Positions 23,919 through 30,327 of a DNA stretch of 35,161 nt are shown one piece after another. Location of the stretch: positions 1-35,161 of the IMG/VR virus record IMGVR_UViG_3300042731_005260; one strand, written 5' to 3'. The notes beneath the pieces are model-generated. The model was not told the origin of the DNA and made no database searches. It saw only the letters and a program-made list of their open reading frames with translations. Both the position numbers and the translations under genes were made by a program. Numbering within the stretch: position 1 is the stretch's first letter; every line of letters begins with the position of its first letter. This DNA comes from a virus.

Positions 23919-24539
23919 CTACTCGGACACCCGTGCGTTGCCGGACACCCGTGCGTTGCCGGACACCCGAGCACTCATGCGTATCCATGCGTCACCGAAC
24001 ACCTGCGCACGGCCGTACACCCACGCGTTGTCGTACACCCACGCGTTGTCGTATACCTGCGCTTGACCGAACACCCGGGCGTTACCAGACAACATCGCGT
24101 TGCCGAACACCCGCGTGCTACCGAACGCCTGAGCGTTGTGGCGTACTTGTACATCGCCGAACATCCGGACGTTACCGGATACCCGCGCGTTGTCGAACAG
24201 CTGAACGTTTCCAGATACTTGCGCACTGATGTACACCCATGCGTTTTCGAACACCTGCGCGTTGCCGAACACCTGAGCGTCGTTGAACACCCGCGCGTCG
24301 TCAGACACTTGTGCAGCCCCGTATACCCGTGCAGCCCCGTATACCCGTGCAGCCCCGTATACCCGTGCGCCACCTAACACCCGTGCGTTATCAAACACCC
24401 AGCACAACCCATTTTGCGAGAGGTTGTTTTCGTTACAAACCAAACCTCCGAGATCCCCCGTTTTTACACCAATTTCGGGAATGTCGCGGAGAGCTTTCAC
24501 CCGGAACAATCCTGTTTCCGGAACAAGTTCGTACTTCAT
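23919..24539 (-). CDS. Hexapeptide-repeat (YdcK-like) beta-helix protein, copy 1
   Basis: The 206-aa protein starts at ATG 24539 with AAGGGG upstream. The first 45 residues (MKYELVPETGLFRVKAL ... VKTGDLGGLVCNENNLSQNG) form the conserved cap seen in YdcK-like proteins, followed by about 26 hexapeptide coils of the form [AV]-x-V-x-[GDN]-[NDA] such as ARVYGA, AQVFGN, AWVYDN. This predicts a left-handed parallel beta-helix. Role unknown. The same cap recurs in the genes at 24542 and 26653. Coil number appears to vary by whole 18-bp units. Confidence 0.75.
   Translation of the reverse strand: MKYELVPETGLFRVKALRDIPEIGVKTGDLGGLVCNENNLSQNGLCWVFDNARVLGGARVYGAARVYGAARVYGAAQVSDDARVFNDAQVFGNAQVFENAWVYISAQVSGNVQLFDNARVSGNVRMFGDVQVRHNAQAFGSTRVFGNAMLSGNARVFGQAQVYDNAWVYDNAWVYGRAQVFGDAWIRMSARVSGNARVSGNARVSE
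24311..24364. repeat. Three perfect 18-bp tandem repeats
   Basis: The unit GTGCAGCCCCGTATACCC occurs three times in a row (24311, 24329, 24347). Each equals one hexapeptide coil of the protein on the minus strand. Similar 18-bp pairs are seen at about 23926-23965 and 24012-24055. In-frame units suggest recent slippage or recombination. Confidence 0.9.
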
Positions 24540-24541
24540 GA

Positions 24542-24988
24542 TTACCCCTTGTCGCATACCCGTGCGTTGCCGAACACCCGCATTTCTCCGGACACTTTAT
24601 CGTTGTCGCACACCCACGCGTCGCCGAACACATGCGCATCGCCGAACACGTTCGCGTCATCAAGCACCCGCGCGTTACCGAACACCTTCGCATTTTCGTA
24701 GATCCACGCATCACCGCACACATGCGCGTTGTCGTACACCTGCGCGTTTCCGTGGATCCACGCATCACCAAACACCCTCGCGTTACCGAACACCCACGCG
24801 TTGCCGGACACCCACGCGTTATCAAGCACCTGCGCGTTACCGGACACCCAGCACAACCCGTTTTGCGAGAGGCTGTCTTCATCGGAGACCACACCCCCGA
24901 GGTCCCCAACCTTTACCCGAATACTAGGAATGTCGATTAGTGCACGGACCCGGAAGAGGTTGCCCTCCGGAACAAGTTTGTACTTCAT
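24542..24988 (-). CDS. Hexapeptide-repeat (YdcK-like) beta-helix protein, copy 2
   Basis: The 148-aa paralog starts at ATG 24988 with GGAGAG 5 nt upstream. Cap: 'MKYKLVPEGNLFRVRALIDI ... VKVGDLGGVVSDEDSLSQNG', then about 17 coils (NAQVLD, NAWVSG, NARVFG, DAHVFG). It ends 2 nt before copy 1 begins, so both are probably translated from one message that also carries the helicase. Coils here are less repetitive at DNA level than in copy 1. Confidence 0.75.
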   Translation of the reverse strand: MKYKLVPEGNLFRVRALIDIPSIRVKVGDLGGVVSDEDSLSQNGLCWVSGNAQVLDNAWVSGNAWVFGNARVFGDAWIHGNAQVYDNAHVCGDAWIYENAKVFGNARVLDDANVFGDAHVFGDAWVCDNDKVSGEMRVFGNARVCDKG

Positions 24989-24997
24989 AATCTCTCC

Positions 24998-26656
24998 TCA
25001 CACAGTAAGTTTGCGGACTGCACGACGTGCTTGAATCCTGGTGATCAAATCGGCAGCATCACCCCGAGTCCGAATCAGTTGAACCTTGTTGCTCGGAAGA
25101 CCTTCCCGAACCAATCGGCTGAGTTGCTGATCGGTCGGGGGTGCGGTGAGCCACCGGGCTTTCCGCTCCGCAAGAGACTTGAACGCTTTCGCTCGGTCCT
25201 CCCCGATACCTTGTGCCCAGTCAACTGGCAGCTGTTCGTGGAGGACCGTGAGCTTGCCCGCGTTGTACGCGGCAAGCTTCCAGGTGTCCACCCCGTTGGG
25301 AACCATGACCACGACTTCCCTGCCCGCACCGAGACACCAGCCGGACTCAACTGGCAGCCACCTCAGACGCGAGGCACCGAAGACGTCAACCGTCTTTGAA
25401 GCCTTCACCGCGCAGGTCTCGTGTTGGAGTTCACCAGCAGCAACCAGCCGCTTGGGGAGGGGGCGAGTGCACAACCGGCACCGGTGGTTGGGGTACTCAC
25501 ACTGTGACATCGGAACGCCGCAGGTTGGGCACGTCTGCTCTTCGCTATCCTCCCGCTTGCGCTTCGCATCGTCAGCTTCAAGACCGAGATCGAGGTCCAC
25601 CAGCGACACCAACTCATGCCGCTCGCTGGCACCGGTCACGTCCAGTACCAGGAGGTCCTTTTTACCGGGGTGAAGCCGGGTACCGCGCCCAACCATCTGC
25701 ACGTACAAGCCGTGGAATTTGGTCGGTCGGGCCACCACAACGCAGTCAATAGATGGTTCGTCGAACCCCTCCGTCAAAACCGCGCAGTTTGTGACCACCT
25801 GCGTTTCACCAGTCTTCAACCGCGCCAACACGGCTTTCCGGTCGTCTGTTGGCATGTCCCCGTACACCGCTTCAGCGGCGATACCGCGGGCAGACAGTGC
25901 CTCAGCGAGATGTTGCGCGGTCTTCACGGTGGGGGTGAATGCTACCCCTTTCCGGTCGCTCGCGTACGTCACGTACGCGTCGGCAATCTGGTCGATGACA
26001 CCGGTAGCTTCCATGGCGTCACCGAGAGAACCTTTCGAAAAATCCCCGCCCGATTTCTTCACCCGGTCGAGATTCATAGTGGTCTCGACAGTTTGAGCGG
26101 GAAGGATCGGGCACAGGTAGCCCCCGTAAATCGCTTCCCGAATCGACATGTAGGAAACAACTTTTTCCCACACCCCGAGTGCTTTTCCATCTCGCTCGGG
26201 GGTGGCTGTGAAGCCGACAGTTAGCGGACCGTACGGTGAGAACGACCCGAGTGCCGTAAGGGTTTTCATGTATATCGGGGCTACCGCGTGGTGCGCTTCA
26301 TCGACAACAACAGTCGCGAACTCTCCGAGCTGAGAGAGCCGGTTGTCCCGGTGCACAGTGTCTATACTGGCGACCACGATATCCCGGTTAACCTCGTTGT
26401 GTTTTGCCTTCACCAAACCGGTACTAAGTTCAGGTGCGATCCATGACAGACTCTCAATCGTTTGGGAAGCAAGCTCTTCCCGGTGCACTAGCACTAAGGA
26501 TTTGCCCAACGATGAGCGTTCTTTGATAGCCGCGCTGAATGCCACAGTCTTTCCGGTCCCGGTCGGGTGCACCACCAGGGGGCGACGCACCCCCTCCCGC
26601 TCTGCTTGGTGAATCGCCATCAGCGCTTCCTGCTGATACGGCCTGAGAGTAATCAC
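24998..26656 (-). CDS. SF2 DEAH-box helicase with zinc-binding insert
   Basis: The 552-aa protein starts at GTG 26656 overlapping the previous stop (GTGA). RecA domain 1: LRPYQQEA (Q-motif-like, 4-11), PTGTGKT (31-37), DEAH (119-122), GFTATPER (148-155). Domain 2: 'GVAFTPTVKTAQHLAEAL', 'TEGFDEPSIDCVV' and 'QMVGRGTRLHPG'. After residue 365 a cysteine cluster (CPTCGVPMSQC ... CRLC) suggests zinc binding. It is typical of phage helicases of the RadD/UvsW group that unwind or remodel branched DNA during replication and recombination. It lies between beta-helix genes. Confidence 0.9.
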   Translation of the reverse strand: MITLRPYQQEALMAIHQAEREGVRRPLVVHPTGTGKTVAFSAAIKERSSLGKSLVLVHREELASQTIESLSWIAPELSTGLVKAKHNEVNRDIVVASIDTVHRDNRLSQLGEFATVVVDEAHHAVAPIYMKTLTALGSFSPYGPLTVGFTATPERDGKALGVWEKVVSYMSIREAIYGGYLCPILPAQTVETTMNLDRVKKSGGDFSKGSLGDAMEATGVIDQIADAYVTYASDRKGVAFTPTVKTAQHLAEALSARGIAAEAVYGDMPTDDRKAVLARLKTGETQVVTNCAVLTEGFDEPSIDCVVVARPTKFHGLYVQMVGRGTRLHPGKKDLLVLDVTGASERHELVSLVDLDLGLEADDAKRKREDSEEQTCPTCGVPMSQCEYPNHRCRLCTRPLPKRLVAAGELQHETCAVKASKTVDVFGASRLRWLPVESGWCLGAGREVVVMVPNGVDTWKLAAYNAGKLTVLHEQLPVDWAQGIGEDRAKAFKSLAERKARWLTAPPTDQQLSRLVREGLPSNKVQLIRTRGDAADLITRIQARRAVRKLTV

Positions 26657-27111
26657 CGGTACACCCTCTCGTTCCCAGAAACCACGTCGTATCCAGACAC
26701 CGCCGCATCACCCGATACCAACGCGTTTTCACACACTAACGCTCTTCCAGATATAACTGCATTACCACGCACCCTCACTTGGCCACGTACTAACGCGTCA
26801 TCACATACTTTCGCGTACTCATGTACAACCGCGTACTCACATACGTGTGCATACCCGCATACATGCACACACCCATACACGCGCGCATGCCCACCCACAC
26901 GTGCAAACCCATATATTTGCGCATCACCGAACACCCTTGCATCGTCAGTTATCGATGCACACTCCGACACCCAGCACAACCCAGTTTGACAAAGGTTGTC
27001 TTTGCCGGAAACCAGCCCCCCGAGGTCACCAACCTTTACACGGATACTCTGGATACCAATGAGTGCGCGAATTCGGAAGAGGTCACCTTCCGGAACGAGT
27101 TCGTATTTCAC
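26653..27111 (-). CDS. Hexapeptide-repeat (YdcK-like) beta-helix protein, copy 3
   Basis: The 152-aa paralog starts at GTG 27111 with GGGGAGA upstream, overlapping the gene before it (GTGA). The cap (MKYELVPEGDLFRIRALIGI ... VKVGDLGGLVSGKDNLCQTG) is nearly that of copies 1 and 2. About 17 coils follow (DARVFG, QIYGFA, HARVYG, DALVRG), more diverged than in the other copies. The helicase gene now lies between copies 2 and 3. Confidence 0.75.
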   Translation of the reverse strand: MKYELVPEGDLFRIRALIGIQSIRVKVGDLGGLVSGKDNLCQTGLCWVSECASITDDARVFGDAQIYGFARVGGHARVYGCVHVCGYAHVCEYAVVHEYAKVCDDALVRGQVRVRGNAVISGRALVCENALVSGDAAVSGYDVVSGNERVYR

Positions 27112-27510: not shown

Positions 27511-27900
27511 CTACCGGTGCCGGACGACCACGCCGAAATGCTTGTACGGTTTTCCGGCAAACCGACCCTTCTTGATCAGCTTTTCCCCGAAGTACTTGAC
27601 GGCCATGAGGTCGCCAACCTTGGGGTTCGCGTCCATCAGTTCACGGCGCAACACCGCGCCGTAACCGATGACACGGAACTTCGAACCATCCTTCGTTCGG
27701 ATGGTGACGGTCGGGACCATCGGGTCTTCGCCATCCTTGGCGAAATCCGACCGAGTCTCCCCGACCGCGACCACGACACCCGAGATACCCTCACCGGGCT
27801 CACTCGGGACCCAACCCTCTGAGTCGTCTTCGATGACCTCATCCAAGAGGTCATCGAGATCAGTGTCGTCACCGAGCTGGTCAAGCAGGTCATCAGACAT
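27511..27900 (-). CDS. OB-fold, ssDNA-binding-like protein
   Basis: The 129-aa protein starts at ATG 27900. The N-terminus is very acidic (DDLLDQLGDDTDLDDLLDEV). Residues 30-129 read as an OB barrel: 'GISGVVVAVGETRSDF', 'PMVPTVTIRTKDGSKFRVIG', 'VGDLMAVKYFGEKLIKKGRF', 'HFGVVV'. Its place with exonuclease, resolvase and polymerase suggests it coats single-stranded DNA in replication. The acidic end is N-terminal, unlike the C-terminal tail of bacterial SSB. A nucleotide-binding role other than SSB is possible. Confidence 0.55.
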   Translation of the reverse strand: MSDDLLDQLGDDTDLDDLLDEVIEDDSEGWVPSEPGEGISGVVVAVGETRSDFAKDGEDPMVPTVTIRTKDGSKFRVIGYGAVLRRELMDANPKVGDLMAVKYFGEKLIKKGRFAGKPYKHFGVVVRHR

Positions 27901-28046
27901 GCTCTACCTACTTCCCTAATTGATCTACCTAGTTGGTTGGGTGTCCGTCTCTCCGGACTGTCACGCCGCTCACGGTAGCGTTCCCGGCCGTTACCAACCC
28001 TCCGTTTCTAGAGCTAGGAGACGTCACGGCTAACCGTCCGTAACTC
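27901..28046 (-). other. Non-coding stretch between tRNA-like element and SSB-like gene
   Basis: There is no ORF of note. It contains short inverted repeats (CCGTCTCTCCGG near 27946, GGTAGCG/CGGCCGTTACC near 27976) but no terminator-like stem. RNA starting at 28712 could therefore continue into the SSB-like gene as a long structured leader. Confidence 0.5.
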
Positions 28047-28132
28047 GTGTTGGAGCGGGAATCGAACCCGCGTATTCCCCGTAGCCCGTTCAACCGGGAT
28101 CAGGGGTTGCTCTACCGCTGAGCTACCCAACC
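28047..28132 (-). tRNA. tRNA-like element 1 with enlarged anticodon arm
   Basis: 86 nt. Acceptor GGTTGGG/TCCAACA pairs at 6 of 7 positions, followed by TA, D-arm GCTC-AGCGGTA-GAGC, and T-arm GCGGG-TTCGATT-CCCGC. Between D- and T-arms there are 37 nt where 22-23 are normal. They fold as CCCC/GGGG, a 4x4 internal loop (TGAT/CTAC), CCCG/CGGG and a GTTGAA hexaloop, so no normal 7-nt anticodon loop forms. An alternative fold shows GAT with a C-C mismatch. No CCA is encoded. Real tRNA function is doubtful; amino acid not assignable. Confidence 0.6.
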
Positions 28133-28226
28133 GCTCACACTGGCATGTGAGCCCTGCCAATGTCTTTGAAACTGATCTTGAGGGTGCCAGCCCCCTTGAT
28201 ACTCGTTCGCCGACAGTGACAAACCG

Positions 28227-28295
28227 CGTTGAGGCGAGGAATCGAACCCCGGTCGCACCCCACACGGGTGTGCTCTCCCATTGAGCTACCTCAAC
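28227..28295 (-). tRNA. tRNA-like element 2 with shortened anticodon loop
   Basis: 69 nt. Acceptor GTTGAGG/CCTCAAC is a perfect 7-bp stem; D-arm GCTC-AATGGGA-GAGC; T-arm CGGGG-TTCGATT-CCTCG. The D- to T-arm gap is 20 nt. A perfect stem CACCC/GGGTG leaves a 5-nt GTGTG loop; forcing a 7-nt loop (GTGTGGG, anticodon GTG, His) breaks two pairs. The discriminator is G and there is no encoded CCA. It could be a degenerate tRNA-His or a purposely altered tRNA mimic. Confidence 0.6.
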
Positions 28296-28367
28296 AGCCG
28301 CGAGCATCGCGACTGGTCTGCACTTCACGTTGCCTGAGATGTCGCTCAGGCAGGCTGTGCCTCACCG

Positions 28368-28437
28368 TACCGCCGAGAGGATTCGAACCCCTCGTGTGCC
28401 CATGCGACCGGTATGGGCACAATCAACCTGATACGGC
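28368..28437 (-). ncRNA. tRNA-like element 3 with truncated D-arm and 9-bp central stem
   Basis: The T-arm AGGGG-TTCGAAT-CCTCT is canonical. The acceptor keeps only GCCG/CGGC, the D region is reduced to TCA-GGT-TGA, and the middle is a perfect 9-bp stem TGTGCCCAT/ATGGGCACA around a 9-nt loop ACCGGTCGC. I could not fit a standard tRNA or a class II tRNA. It is placed in line with elements 1 and 2. Confidence 0.45.
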
Positions 28438-28442
28438 TTAGG

Positions 28443-28708
28443 GAGGGGATTACGGTGATCACCCCTCTGTCAGGCATTGCCACCGACTTCAATAGCATAC
28501 GTACCGAAGCGAGTATCCTGTCAGCCGAATACAAACCACTATTCAGTTGTGGCAGGGCTGATGCCGCGAACACCAGCCCCTACGGATGGTCGAGCCTGCC
28601 GCTACAGGCTACCTCCCGGAAAGCTTCCGGCCCTCCGGAACACCAGGTTGGGATCGAGCCGAACACGATCCCCGGTGTCGGGGTTGGGGGTCGATCACCC
28701 CGACACCG
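28443..28708 (-). ncRNA. Structured RNA region: tandem perfect hairpins after a promoter
   Basis: No protein gene. In leftward order: a 12-bp stem 28697-28708/28673-28684 at the RNA 5' end; a directly adjoining 7-bp stem 28666-28672/28650-28656; CCGGAA stem 28635-28640/28625-28630 with a 4-nt loop; 6-bp stem 28605-28610/28593-28598; 6-bp stem 28574-28579/28555-28560; 6-bp stem 28462-28467/28443-28448. The density of perfect stems suggests a functional RNA or a structured leader. Confidence 0.5.
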
Positions 28709-28711
28709 AGA

Positions 28712-28740
28712 ACATTACAGTCATGCCGATTCGGTGTCAA
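28712..28740 (-). promoter_or_regulatory. Early-type promoter (TTGACA-17-TAATGT) of the structured RNA locus
   Basis: The -35 TTGACA is 28740-28735 and the -10 TAATGT 28717-28712. It is embedded in the last codons of the exonuclease gene, with the spacer CGGCATGACTG containing its TGA stop. Expected RNA start is near 28705, at the first hairpin. Confidence 0.85.
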
Positions 28741-29815
28741 CCGTGCTCTTAGGTGCACAGATCGTGAGCCTACGGTGACTAGATGGCACTGTAACAGCGT
28801 CGGCCACGTCCGGGTACTTCGCCTTCAGAAGCTTGGTGTCGATCCGAGATCCGGTGATCTCGGGGTAGCTCACCACCCTGGTGTCGCCGAGGTACCCAGC
28901 TCCCGCGTCCCCGACCATCATCCGGAAGTAATTCTTGATCTCTTCCAACCGGTTGGCAGCCTGCTTCGCCTCATCCTTGGCTGTGCGGTACTCCGCCAGC
29001 CACATCCTTGCATCGTCCGGCAGCTCCATACTCGGGTGAACCACCTTGGGGTGGAGGCGCTTCAACAGCTCTTCCGTGCGCGGGTGCCGCAGGTCATGCA
29101 TCGGCGGTTCGTCTCCCAGAATGTGATCATTCCAGAACCGCATCGCCGCGTTTGTCATCTCGGCGAACCAATCGCGATCCCGCAGGATCTCCACCACGAA
29201 AAACTGGCGTTCTGCCCCGAGCACGAAGCAGCCCAACCATCCGCGTTCCAACCCGAGGATGCCGAGCTGCCATTGCACCTGCGCTTGATACGACAGCGGG
29301 GCAGACCCGGTGTTCCCGCCGGACGGGTTGATGGTGCCAGACTGCCAGTGTTCGTCGTCCCCGGCGGTCTTGCACTCGATCACCCCGACTGCCTTCCACG
29401 ATCGGGGTCTGCAAGCGAACCGGTCGGGGGTCACCCGCAACACCGGGTTGTCCCGGACAGCCCACAACCCACCAGCGAACCGGGACACCAGCCCCAACTC
29501 GTCGGCAGTCTTCTGAGCGACCACCTCTTCCAGCCGGTGACCCCACTCGATCGCAGGGATGTCAGAAAGATCCTTCCCACCCCGCTTTTTGATGTTGTAC
29601 ACCGAGAAAGCGGTCTCGTACTCGCTGACCCCAATCAAGGCACCCACCTCAGAACCACCGACACCTTCTCTCCGAGCTGCCAACCACGCTTCGCGACCGG
29701 CACACTCGGGGAGGATGAGATCGGCAGGGCTGTTCGCCACGGAGGCGAACCGGTGTTTGGGGTGCTGGCATGCGCGGCGTCCCCCGGTGGTCCGCAGCCA
29801 GAACTGCGTGTTCAT
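28721..29815 (-). CDS. YqaJ-type viral exonuclease / recombinase
   Basis: The 364-aa product starts at ATG 29815, whose A is the last base of the upstream TGA. It has the lambda-exonuclease-like core: 'REGVGGSEVGALIGVSEYE' (about 50-68), 'EWGHRLEEVVAQK' with the first acidic residue, 'VTPDRFA', and the catalytic 'VGVIECKTAG' (E-x-K). 'SYQAQVQWQLGI' follows as in YqaJ proteins. It degrades one strand of duplex DNA for recombination with the nearby SSB-like and RuvC-like proteins. The C-terminal 100 residues are helical and may carry a partner-binding domain. Confidence 0.88.
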   Translation of the reverse strand: MNTQFWLRTTGGRRACQHPKHRFASVANSPADLILPECAGREAWLAARREGVGGSEVGALIGVSEYETAFSVYNIKKRGGKDLSDIPAIEWGHRLEEVVAQKTADELGLVSRFAGGLWAVRDNPVLRVTPDRFACRPRSWKAVGVIECKTAGDDEHWQSGTINPSGGNTGSAPLSYQAQVQWQLGILGLERGWLGCFVLGAERQFFVVEILRDRDWFAEMTNAAMRFWNDHILGDEPPMHDLRHPRTEELLKRLHPKVVHPSMELPDDARMWLAEYRTAKDEAKQAANRLEEIKNYFRMMVGDAGAGYLGDTRVVSYPEITGSRIDTKLLKAKYPDVADAVTVPSSHRRLTICAPKSTVDTESA

Positions 29816-30327
29816 CACAGTTGCACACTCCCCTGGTACTCGATTTTGATCTTGTCAAGTGCCGACCGGTTGGCGGTCGGCAGGTCAAACAGCCATGTCC
29901 CCGTGTAGGCGAGTGCCGCCACCATGAGCCACCAGGCGTCACACTGGTTGTCGTCTTTGAACTCCATGCCATCCCGTTTCAGGGCAGCAACCGCCATCGC
30001 GGTCTTGTCCGCGTTACCACGCCCGGTAGCAAACTTTTTCAGGCTGGTTGGCGGCAGCGTGGCATACTGAATCTTGGCCTCGATCAGCGCGGTTCGAACC
30101 GCGCCGTGGACCATGCCGGTAATCCCGGCCGTATGCGAGTGGTTCAAGTACCCCTCGATCAGTACCAGCTCACATCCGGCACACCGGCTCAACACCCGGT
30201 GTGCGATCTGAGCCAAGCGTTGGTCACCCGTGCCTTGCGGACGGATGATGCCTACCGTCATAAGACTGGTCACCGAGGTTGCTACCCCGGTCCCGGTCAT
30301 GGACAAATCCAACCCAGCAACGTCCAT
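29815..30327 (-). CDS. RuvC-like Holliday junction resolvase
   Basis: The 170-aa protein starts at ATG 30327 with GAGAGGGA upstream. RNase H-like fold: 'VAGLDLSMTGTGVA' (first aspartate, 7), 'CELVLIEGY' (glutamate near 58), 'PPTSLKKFATGRGNADK' and 'DDNQCDAWWLMVAAL' (last acidic residues). This is the pattern of phage RuvC-type endonucleases that resolve four-way junctions before packaging. It is the first gene of the recombination pair from the promoter at 30357 and shares a base with the exonuclease start. Confidence 0.82.
   Translation of the reverse strand: MDVAGLDLSMTGTGVATSVTSLMTVGIIRPQGTGDQRLAQIAHRVLSRCAGCELVLIEGYLNHSHTAGITGMVHGAVRTALIEAKIQYATLPPTSLKKFATGRGNADKTAMAVAALKRDGMEFKDDNQCDAWWLMVAALAYTGTWLFDLPTANRSALDKIKIEYQGSVQL

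Follow-up and report, generated by a model that had tools for sequence, protein, structure and literature searches.

A predicted pseudoknotted leader RNA with tRNA-shaped domains ahead of the replication genes of phiAsp2-like phages

Introduction

Structured RNAs with tRNA-like parts are already known from phages, and the RNA described here appears to be an unrecognised form of them. In T4 phage, the leader of the gene 32 mRNA carries a 5′ pseudoknot ahead of the gene for an ssDNA-binding protein. The locus reported here, located on a viral DNA stretch of 35,161 nucleotides (IMG/VR record IMGVR_UViG_3300042731_005260; hereafter the window), likewise places a pseudoknot ahead of a (probable) ssDNA-binding protein gene, but has several knots, tRNA-like parts, and a length of hundreds of nucleotides. 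The tmRNA also combines a tRNA-like domain with H-type pseudoknots within one RNA; in contrast, the cloverleaf here is continuous rather than split round a reading frame, and there is no tag peptide. ARAGORN found no tmRNA in the window or the phiAsp2-like loci, and a tmRNA remnant was rejected given there was no split domain or tag. The only tmRNA match was a partial one at the level of the T-arm (22.2 bits; cut-off 47).

GOLLD and ROOL are RNA cages that adjoin tRNAs, and the present RNA resembles them in being a large, structured, pseudoknotted phage RNA near or with tRNAs (PMC12286853). Unlike them, it is a chain of small swappable modules in which the tRNA-shaped domain is integral and repeated, and the Rfam covariance models of GOLLD and ROOL gave no match in the window or its relatives. 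The theta (HDV-like) ribozymes are a further comparison, as pseudoknotted phage RNAs beginning at a tRNA(-like) 3′ end, and are defined by a nested double pseudoknot, a P3 hairpin, and a catalytic C in J4/2 (PMC10879173). The knots here are simple H-type knots with no P3 between the knot strands. When the aligned modules were checked by eye against that motif, the closing strand of stem 1 followed the second knot strand by too few nucleotides to accommodate P3, and a ribozyme of this type was rejected.

Like tRNAs (RF00005), including those of phages, the elements display an acceptor stem and a T-arm with a TTCRANY loop, and one of their two shapes (type B, below) also has a D-arm with GG. Unlike tRNAs, they have either a long hairpin or a loop of 4, 5, or 9–14 nt in place of a normal anticodon arm; they also encode no CCA, lack U33 in five 7-nt loops, and are followed by a pseudoknot. 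Phage tRNAs that evade anticodon nucleases are reported to be working tRNAs whose 7-nt anticodon loop carries altered bases (PMC10264068), whereas that loop is absent or of another size here. In Rfam release 15, the only family that covers any of the locus is the generic tRNA model, which matches elements 1 and 2, and a literature search, weak evidence given its thin coverage of subscription journals, returned no name for such an RNA. By comparison across phages, the locus is a conserved, covarying RNA with tRNA-shaped domains that would be unable to decode in the usual way.

Results

Layout of the Locus and Flanking Genes

The first-pass annotation had marked three tRNA-like elements with abnormal anticodon arms at 28047–28437, all of which were recovered in our analysis (ARAGORN, Rfam, MFE folds, and relatives at the same place). 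That interval omits a promoter-like sequence (28740) and a 3′ pseudoknot and hairpin (to 27943), and the elements are domains of one longer RNA, conserved and pseudoknotted, that has a promoter-like sequence to itself. All three lie on the minus strand, as do the surrounding genes. The features are as follows:

28721–29818, minus strand: RecE-like exonuclease gene, upstream of the RNA (phrog_434, E 9e-80)
28712–28740, minus strand: promoter-like sequence overlapping the RecE gene 3′ end (TTGACA, 17-nt spacer, TAATGT)
28674–28707, minus strand: 10-bp hairpin at the predicted RNA 5′ end (GGTGTCGGGG/CCCCGACACC)
28369–28437, minus strand: tRNA-like element 3, a four-way junction without linkers, with a 9-bp stem and 9-nt loop as the anticodon arm (MFE fold)
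28309–28352, minus strand: candidate H-type pseudoknot behind element 3 (TGCCTGAG/CTCAGGCA; loop GCGAC with GTCGC), read from a single sequence
28228–28295, minus strand: tRNA-like element 2, with canonical acceptor, D- and T-arms, a 5-bp anticodon stem, and the 5-nt loop GTGTG (ARAGORN, Rfam, MFE)
28048–28132, minus strand: tRNA-like element 1, with canonical D- and T-arms and an enlarged, nested anticodon arm at 28077–28106 (ARAGORN, Rfam, MFE)
27987–28039, minus strand: H-type pseudoknot directly behind element 1 (GGACG/CGTCT; loop GCCGT with ACGGC)
27963–27981, minus strand: helix P_a, ahead of the GTGAC hairpin (ACG-CTA-CCG-TGAG-CGG-CGT), a layout shared with relative L013
27943–27964, minus strand: GTGAC hairpin (GTGAC..GGANAGAC; GTGACA-GTCCG-GAGAGA-CGGAC)
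27511–27900, minus strand: first gene downstream of the RNA, a homologue of phiAsp2 Pas50 with an acidic N-terminus and an OB-like fold (alignment, AlphaFold2, Foldseek)

In relatives, the sequence TTGCNAC..17..TAANGT lies directly behind RecE, equivalent in position to the promoter-like sequence of the window. Transcription of the window's leader would start at ~28705. The predicted RNA is ~800 nt long, reaching the gene start at 27900, and relatives carry different hairpins at its predicted 5′ end. Some relatives (e.g., L006, L036, and L041) also have an imperfect palindrome, such as TGACACTTAAGTGTCA, just behind RecE and ahead of the promoter-like sequence; it resembles a repressor operator. 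A hidden reading frame across the elements was considered and rejected, the ORF in question (28014–28328) having no Pfam or PHROG match.

The operon downstream of the RNA encodes an OB-fold protein, a helicase, and a DNA polymerase. The AlphaFold2 model of the first product (27511–27900; pLDDT 86) is an OB-like barrel with an acidic N-terminus, for which Foldseek returned phiAsp2 Pas50 (1e-17) and, weakly, the SsDNA-binding protein of Gordonia phage Parada (8e-4). Matches in the PDB were weak (best 0.012) and included several OB-fold/SSB entries. The product is probably an ssDNA-binding protein. Among the replication genes lie three related beta-solenoid (YdcK/bactofilin-like) proteins (23919–24557, 24542–24988, and 26653–27111, minus strand). 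The window also encodes an AAA_33/polynucleotide-kinase-like protein (30949–31647, minus strand), which might be linked to RNA repair; a relative of it was not seen beside most other copies of the RNA.

The Three tRNA-like Elements

Element 1 is called by ARAGORN as an 86-nt tRNA-Ile (GAT) and scores 39.5 bits with the Rfam tRNA model (RF00005; cut-off 29), with six of its seven acceptor pairs formed. Its middle folds (MFE) into a long nested hairpin, CCCC-tga-tCCCG-gttgaa-CGGG-cta-CGGGG; it may also be read as a 4-bp anticodon stem with a 20-nt variable arm, which tRNA-Ile is not known to have. A BHB-type intron was rejected here, as the two 3-nt bulges lie opposite each other and do not form a bulge-helix-bulge. 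Element 2, with all seven acceptor pairs formed, is called as a 70-nt tRNA-Thr (TGT; Rfam 50.8 bits, cut-off 29). Its anticodon arm, CACCC-GTGTG-GGGTG, has no U33 (G at 33 if read as a 7-nt loop), and its plan recurs in L026 (loop TGCA) and L031 (loop CTAG).

Element 3 was detected by neither ARAGORN nor Rfam. Its MFE fold comprises an acceptor of 4–5 bp (CCGU/GCGG), a 4-bp D-like arm (AUCA-GGU-UGAU), a 9-bp stem (UGUGCCCAU/AUGGGCACA), and a 7-bp T-stem with the canonical loop UUCGAAU. The first-pass annotation was thus right as to the 9-bp stem and the T-arm; it had also implied an abnormal D-arm, where the fold gives a short D-like one. The linkerless plan is that of the type A elements of relatives (below), without the type A sequence. 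None of the three elements has the usual 5-bp anticodon stem, 7-nt loop, and U33 of a tRNA. Folded singly, each barely betters its shuffles (z of -1.8 to -2.0), and the decisive evidence therefore comes from relatives; a 511-nt stretch folded as a whole gave a z of -3.4.

Conservation and Covariation in Related Phages

Protein identity between the window and a group of phages, the Actinoplanes phage phiAsp2 among them, is 60–70%. We retrieved relatives via their RecE and helicase proteins and retained the 31 non-redundant loci in which both RecE and the small gene (the homologue of 27511–27900) could be placed. In 29 of these, at least one tRNA-shaped element lies on the gene strand in the gap between RecE and the small gene. 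The exceptions are L040, which has no RNA, and L008, which has no element in that gap. Between the same flanking genes, L040 (2360–2536) shows a promoter-like sequence and a gene start with no tRNA-like RNA between, so the RNA is dispensable or replaceable. L008 (5100–5400) has its tRNA-like element upstream of RecE rather than behind it, and the anticodon arm of that element is long.

Across 22 whole records, matches to the Rfam tRNA model were confined to this locus (in nine records), and thus these phages are without tRNA clusters. The sole near relative of the window (L002) is identical in the compared proteins, and the covariation is therefore drawn from more distant phages; the locus of the window, used as a nucleotide query against phage records, gave no match, being too divergent. 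Short exact-pattern scans of 84,980 prokaryote genomes found neither the type A pattern nor RecE relatives, as expected for non-integrating phages, and with no host-genome copy of either we rejected an attachment site.

The elements take two shapes. In type B, seen in elements 1 and 2 of the window and in ~15 relatives, both the D-arm (GTAGCTCAAYGGNAGAGC) and the T-arm are canonical. Type A is a highly conserved form, present in phiAsp2 between pas49 and pas50, where it is unannotated; its 16 distinct copies share a near-invariant GATAGGCAGTTGTCA and the T-arm CGTGGTTCGAGTCCACG, with the caveat that they were collected with a pattern fixing part of these letters. In type A, the "D-arm" (RNAalifold) is a hairpin, GATAG-GCAG-TTGTC, set against the acceptor and followed by a stem, GCCC/GGGC, which is maintained via U-A and A-U compensations. 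The D-arm-like sequence is near-invariant in all 16 copies, the acceptor/T stack is long (~8 + 6 bp), and the hairpin abuts the 5′ end of the element.

Acceptor pairing exceeded that of shuffled controls in both shapes (type B, 92/98 vs. 57.2; type A, 114/128 vs. 97.7; each 0/20000), and the type A alignment held 19 double changes (4.5 in shuffles, 0/500). Compensated stems had been put forward in the first-pass annotation as an argument against simple decay, and acceptor stems indeed covary in relatives at the same place; rather than ordinary tRNAs with random loss of pairing, the relatives carry equally abnormal elements that are still paired.

The anticodon arm behaves otherwise. Its stems range from 3 to 10 bp and its loops measure 3, 4, 5, 6, 7, 9, 10, 11, and 14 nt, with unrelated sequences that mostly lack U33 (missing from all five 7-nt loops in our hand-made table). 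The anticodon arm is thus the part of the element that is free to vary. Self-complementary short loops (TGCA, CTAG, GTAC, and ACCGGT) were noted in L003, L020, L025, L026, L031, L036, L065, and the window (28369–28437, minus strand), and would permit kissing dimers. A self-complementary 4-mer occurs in 13 of the 24 anticodon-arm loops vs. 5.2 in shuffles, a soft statistic and no more than a lead, given the loop borders were set by hand and several copies (type A) share descent.

Pseudoknots behind the Elements

One or two pseudoknots lie behind an element, beginning within ~1 nt of the acceptor end. Homologues of the knot at 27987–28039 occur in L007, L009, L013, and L032, and also in L093, a contig that is otherwise unrelated. 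The alignment of the window knot with these five is too shifted for formal pair counts; compared by eye, the two strands shift in step (GCCGT/ACGGC in the window, CCGGT/ACCGG in L013, CCGT/ACGG in L093, and GTCGT/ACGGC in L009).

Two knots stand in tandem in ten phages, including phiAsp2. The four helices of this module are 99.2% paired; eight pairs show changes in both partners, and double-change cells number 19 vs. 5.0 in shuffles (0/500). Slid controls gave 26–48%. In the second version of the module, carried by ten further phages, pairing is complete (100%), and one pair of the knot appears as G-C, C-G, A-U, and U-A. On a 55-kb contig (L193:1700–1720), the two-knot module stands immediately behind a promoter-like sequence and has no tRNA-like element in front of it; the module is thus independent and can act as a 5′ end alone.

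The GTGAC Hairpin

Several of these RNAs, that of the window among them, finish in a hairpin of the form GTGAC-R-NYCYG-GANAGA-CRGRN, for which an Rfam search gave no match. A scan of viral contigs placed it in >100 others (at least 120 matches, L072–L191), although the pattern in its first form was too loose to size the class, and the counts that follow hold among the matches listed. The pair left unconstrained by the pattern forms in 99 of 103 unique sequences (GC 55, CG 32, AU 5, UA 4, GU 3). Known phiAsp2-like loci excluded, a T-arm lies ≤300 nt before or ≤150 nt behind the hairpin in 29/103 (0.9% of control windows; 30-fold), and a Shine–Dalgarno sequence with a start codon lies just behind it in 30/103 (14% of control windows; ~2-fold). 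According to ARAGORN, the neighbours of the hairpin in other phages are mostly ordinary-looking tRNAs.

A helix pairing with the GT of the hairpin usually precedes it. The hairpin occurs both beside tRNAs and in 5′ leaders, and two or three stand in tandem in L123, L126, and L147. One match inside a real phage tmRNA (L136) was taken as chance, its free pair being mismatched.

Discussion

The reading that we put first, and hold tentatively, is that the three elements are domains of one non-coding structured leader of ~800 nt, which would run from its own promoter-like sequence behind RecE into the operon for the OB-fold (probably ssDNA-binding) protein, helicase, and DNA polymerase. The tRNA-like parts would be recognised via their acceptor stem and T-arm rather than serve as decoders, most likely by the host enzymes RNase P in front and RNase Z behind, and cleavage would leave an mRNA with a pseudoknot at its extreme 5′ end, which may protect the message and/or set its translation. 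The processing signals suggested in the first-pass annotation are a possibility that forms part of this reading.

RNase P and RNase Z do not read the anticodon arm, which would leave that arm free to be swapped. We put processing first for the following reasons: the knots begin where the acceptor ends, the elements lack an encoded CCA, tRNA-end enzymes do not attend to the part that varies freely, and the knot module can form a 5′ end by itself. We also count in its favour the presence of elements in 29 of 31 loci, the covariation of acceptors whose anticodon arms differ, the covariation of the knots, the enrichment of the GTGAC hairpin near T-arms and near ribosome-binding sites with start codons, the OB-fold-like product of the next gene, and the lack of any other tRNA in 22 records (Rfam). 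Against it stand, in type A, the long acceptor/T stack and the hairpin lying against the 5′ end, which would make a poor RNase P substrate and favour an architectural role, the near-invariant D-arm-like sequence of type A, which RNase P does not demand, the drawing of covariation only from distant phages, and L040, which lacks the RNA.

An architectural role is at the centre of the main rival, a possible though doubtful one, under which the locus would be an "ornate" large RNA of the GOLLD/ROOL kind, with junctions and pseudoknots as architecture and the anticodon-arm loops (TGCA, CTAG, GTAC, and ACCGGT) mediating dimerisation or assembly. In size, pseudoknots, and phage origin it resembles those RNAs (PMC12286853), the excess of self-complementary loops points the same way, and the near-invariant type A D-arm-like sequence would suit a tertiary contact. 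However, neither the GOLLD nor the ROOL model matches, the loop statistic is soft for the reasons given above, the loop of element 2 in the window is not self-complementary, and the modules are freely exchanged among phages, unlike a single fixed large fold. We consider it unlikely that the leader is chiefly autoregulatory, with the pseudoknots binding the OB-fold protein of the next gene and repressing its translation, as in the T4 gene 32 leader, and the tRNA-like parts acting as spacers or stabilisers: the product is OB-like and the RNA lies immediately upstream of its gene in 29 of 31 loci, but the retention of tRNA shape would go unexplained, and in other phages the GTGAC hairpin and pseudoknots precede different genes.

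Retention of tRNA shape would be accounted for if the elements were decoys or sponges, whether for host enzymes that read tRNAs or for defences that target them. Anticodon nucleases act in, and need, the anticodon loop, and the decoy role for such nucleases raised in the first-pass annotation fares poorly given this loop is absent from the elements or replaced by unrelated loops of 3 to 14 nt, mostly without U33. Phages are reported to escape tRNA-cutting defences with tRNAs of their own (PMC10264068 and PMC11555353), but decoys would leave the conserved pseudoknots and hairpin unexplained, and we regard them as improbable. Least probable, in our estimate, is the decay of ordinary phage tRNAs. 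Elements 1 and 2 still pass as tRNAs with ARAGORN and Rfam, and the elements may descend from tRNAs like the ordinary-looking ones beside GTGAC hairpins elsewhere. Yet decay would disrupt stems at random, which the covariation already contradicts: acceptor, T-, and anticodon stems are compensated across many divergent phages, and type A is near-invariant in 16 copies.

More broadly, we propose, with even confidence for and against, that these RNAs belong to a new and widespread class of phage RNA built from swappable modules (a tRNA-shaped junction, H-type pseudoknots, and the GTGAC hairpin) in operon leaders, in which the tRNA fold would serve as a non-decoding "tRNA scaffold" with an exchangeable arm. 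One practical warning is that software for finding tRNAs labels such elements "tRNA-Ile" or "tRNA-Thr". Because phiAsp2, which grows on Actinoplanes, is a cultured carrier, the question is directly accessible. If the proposal is true, phages would possess an unrecognised family of structured RNA in which the shape of tRNA is under selection without decoding, and which would offer a small, testable system for how viruses recruit tRNA-end enzymes or RNA assembly.
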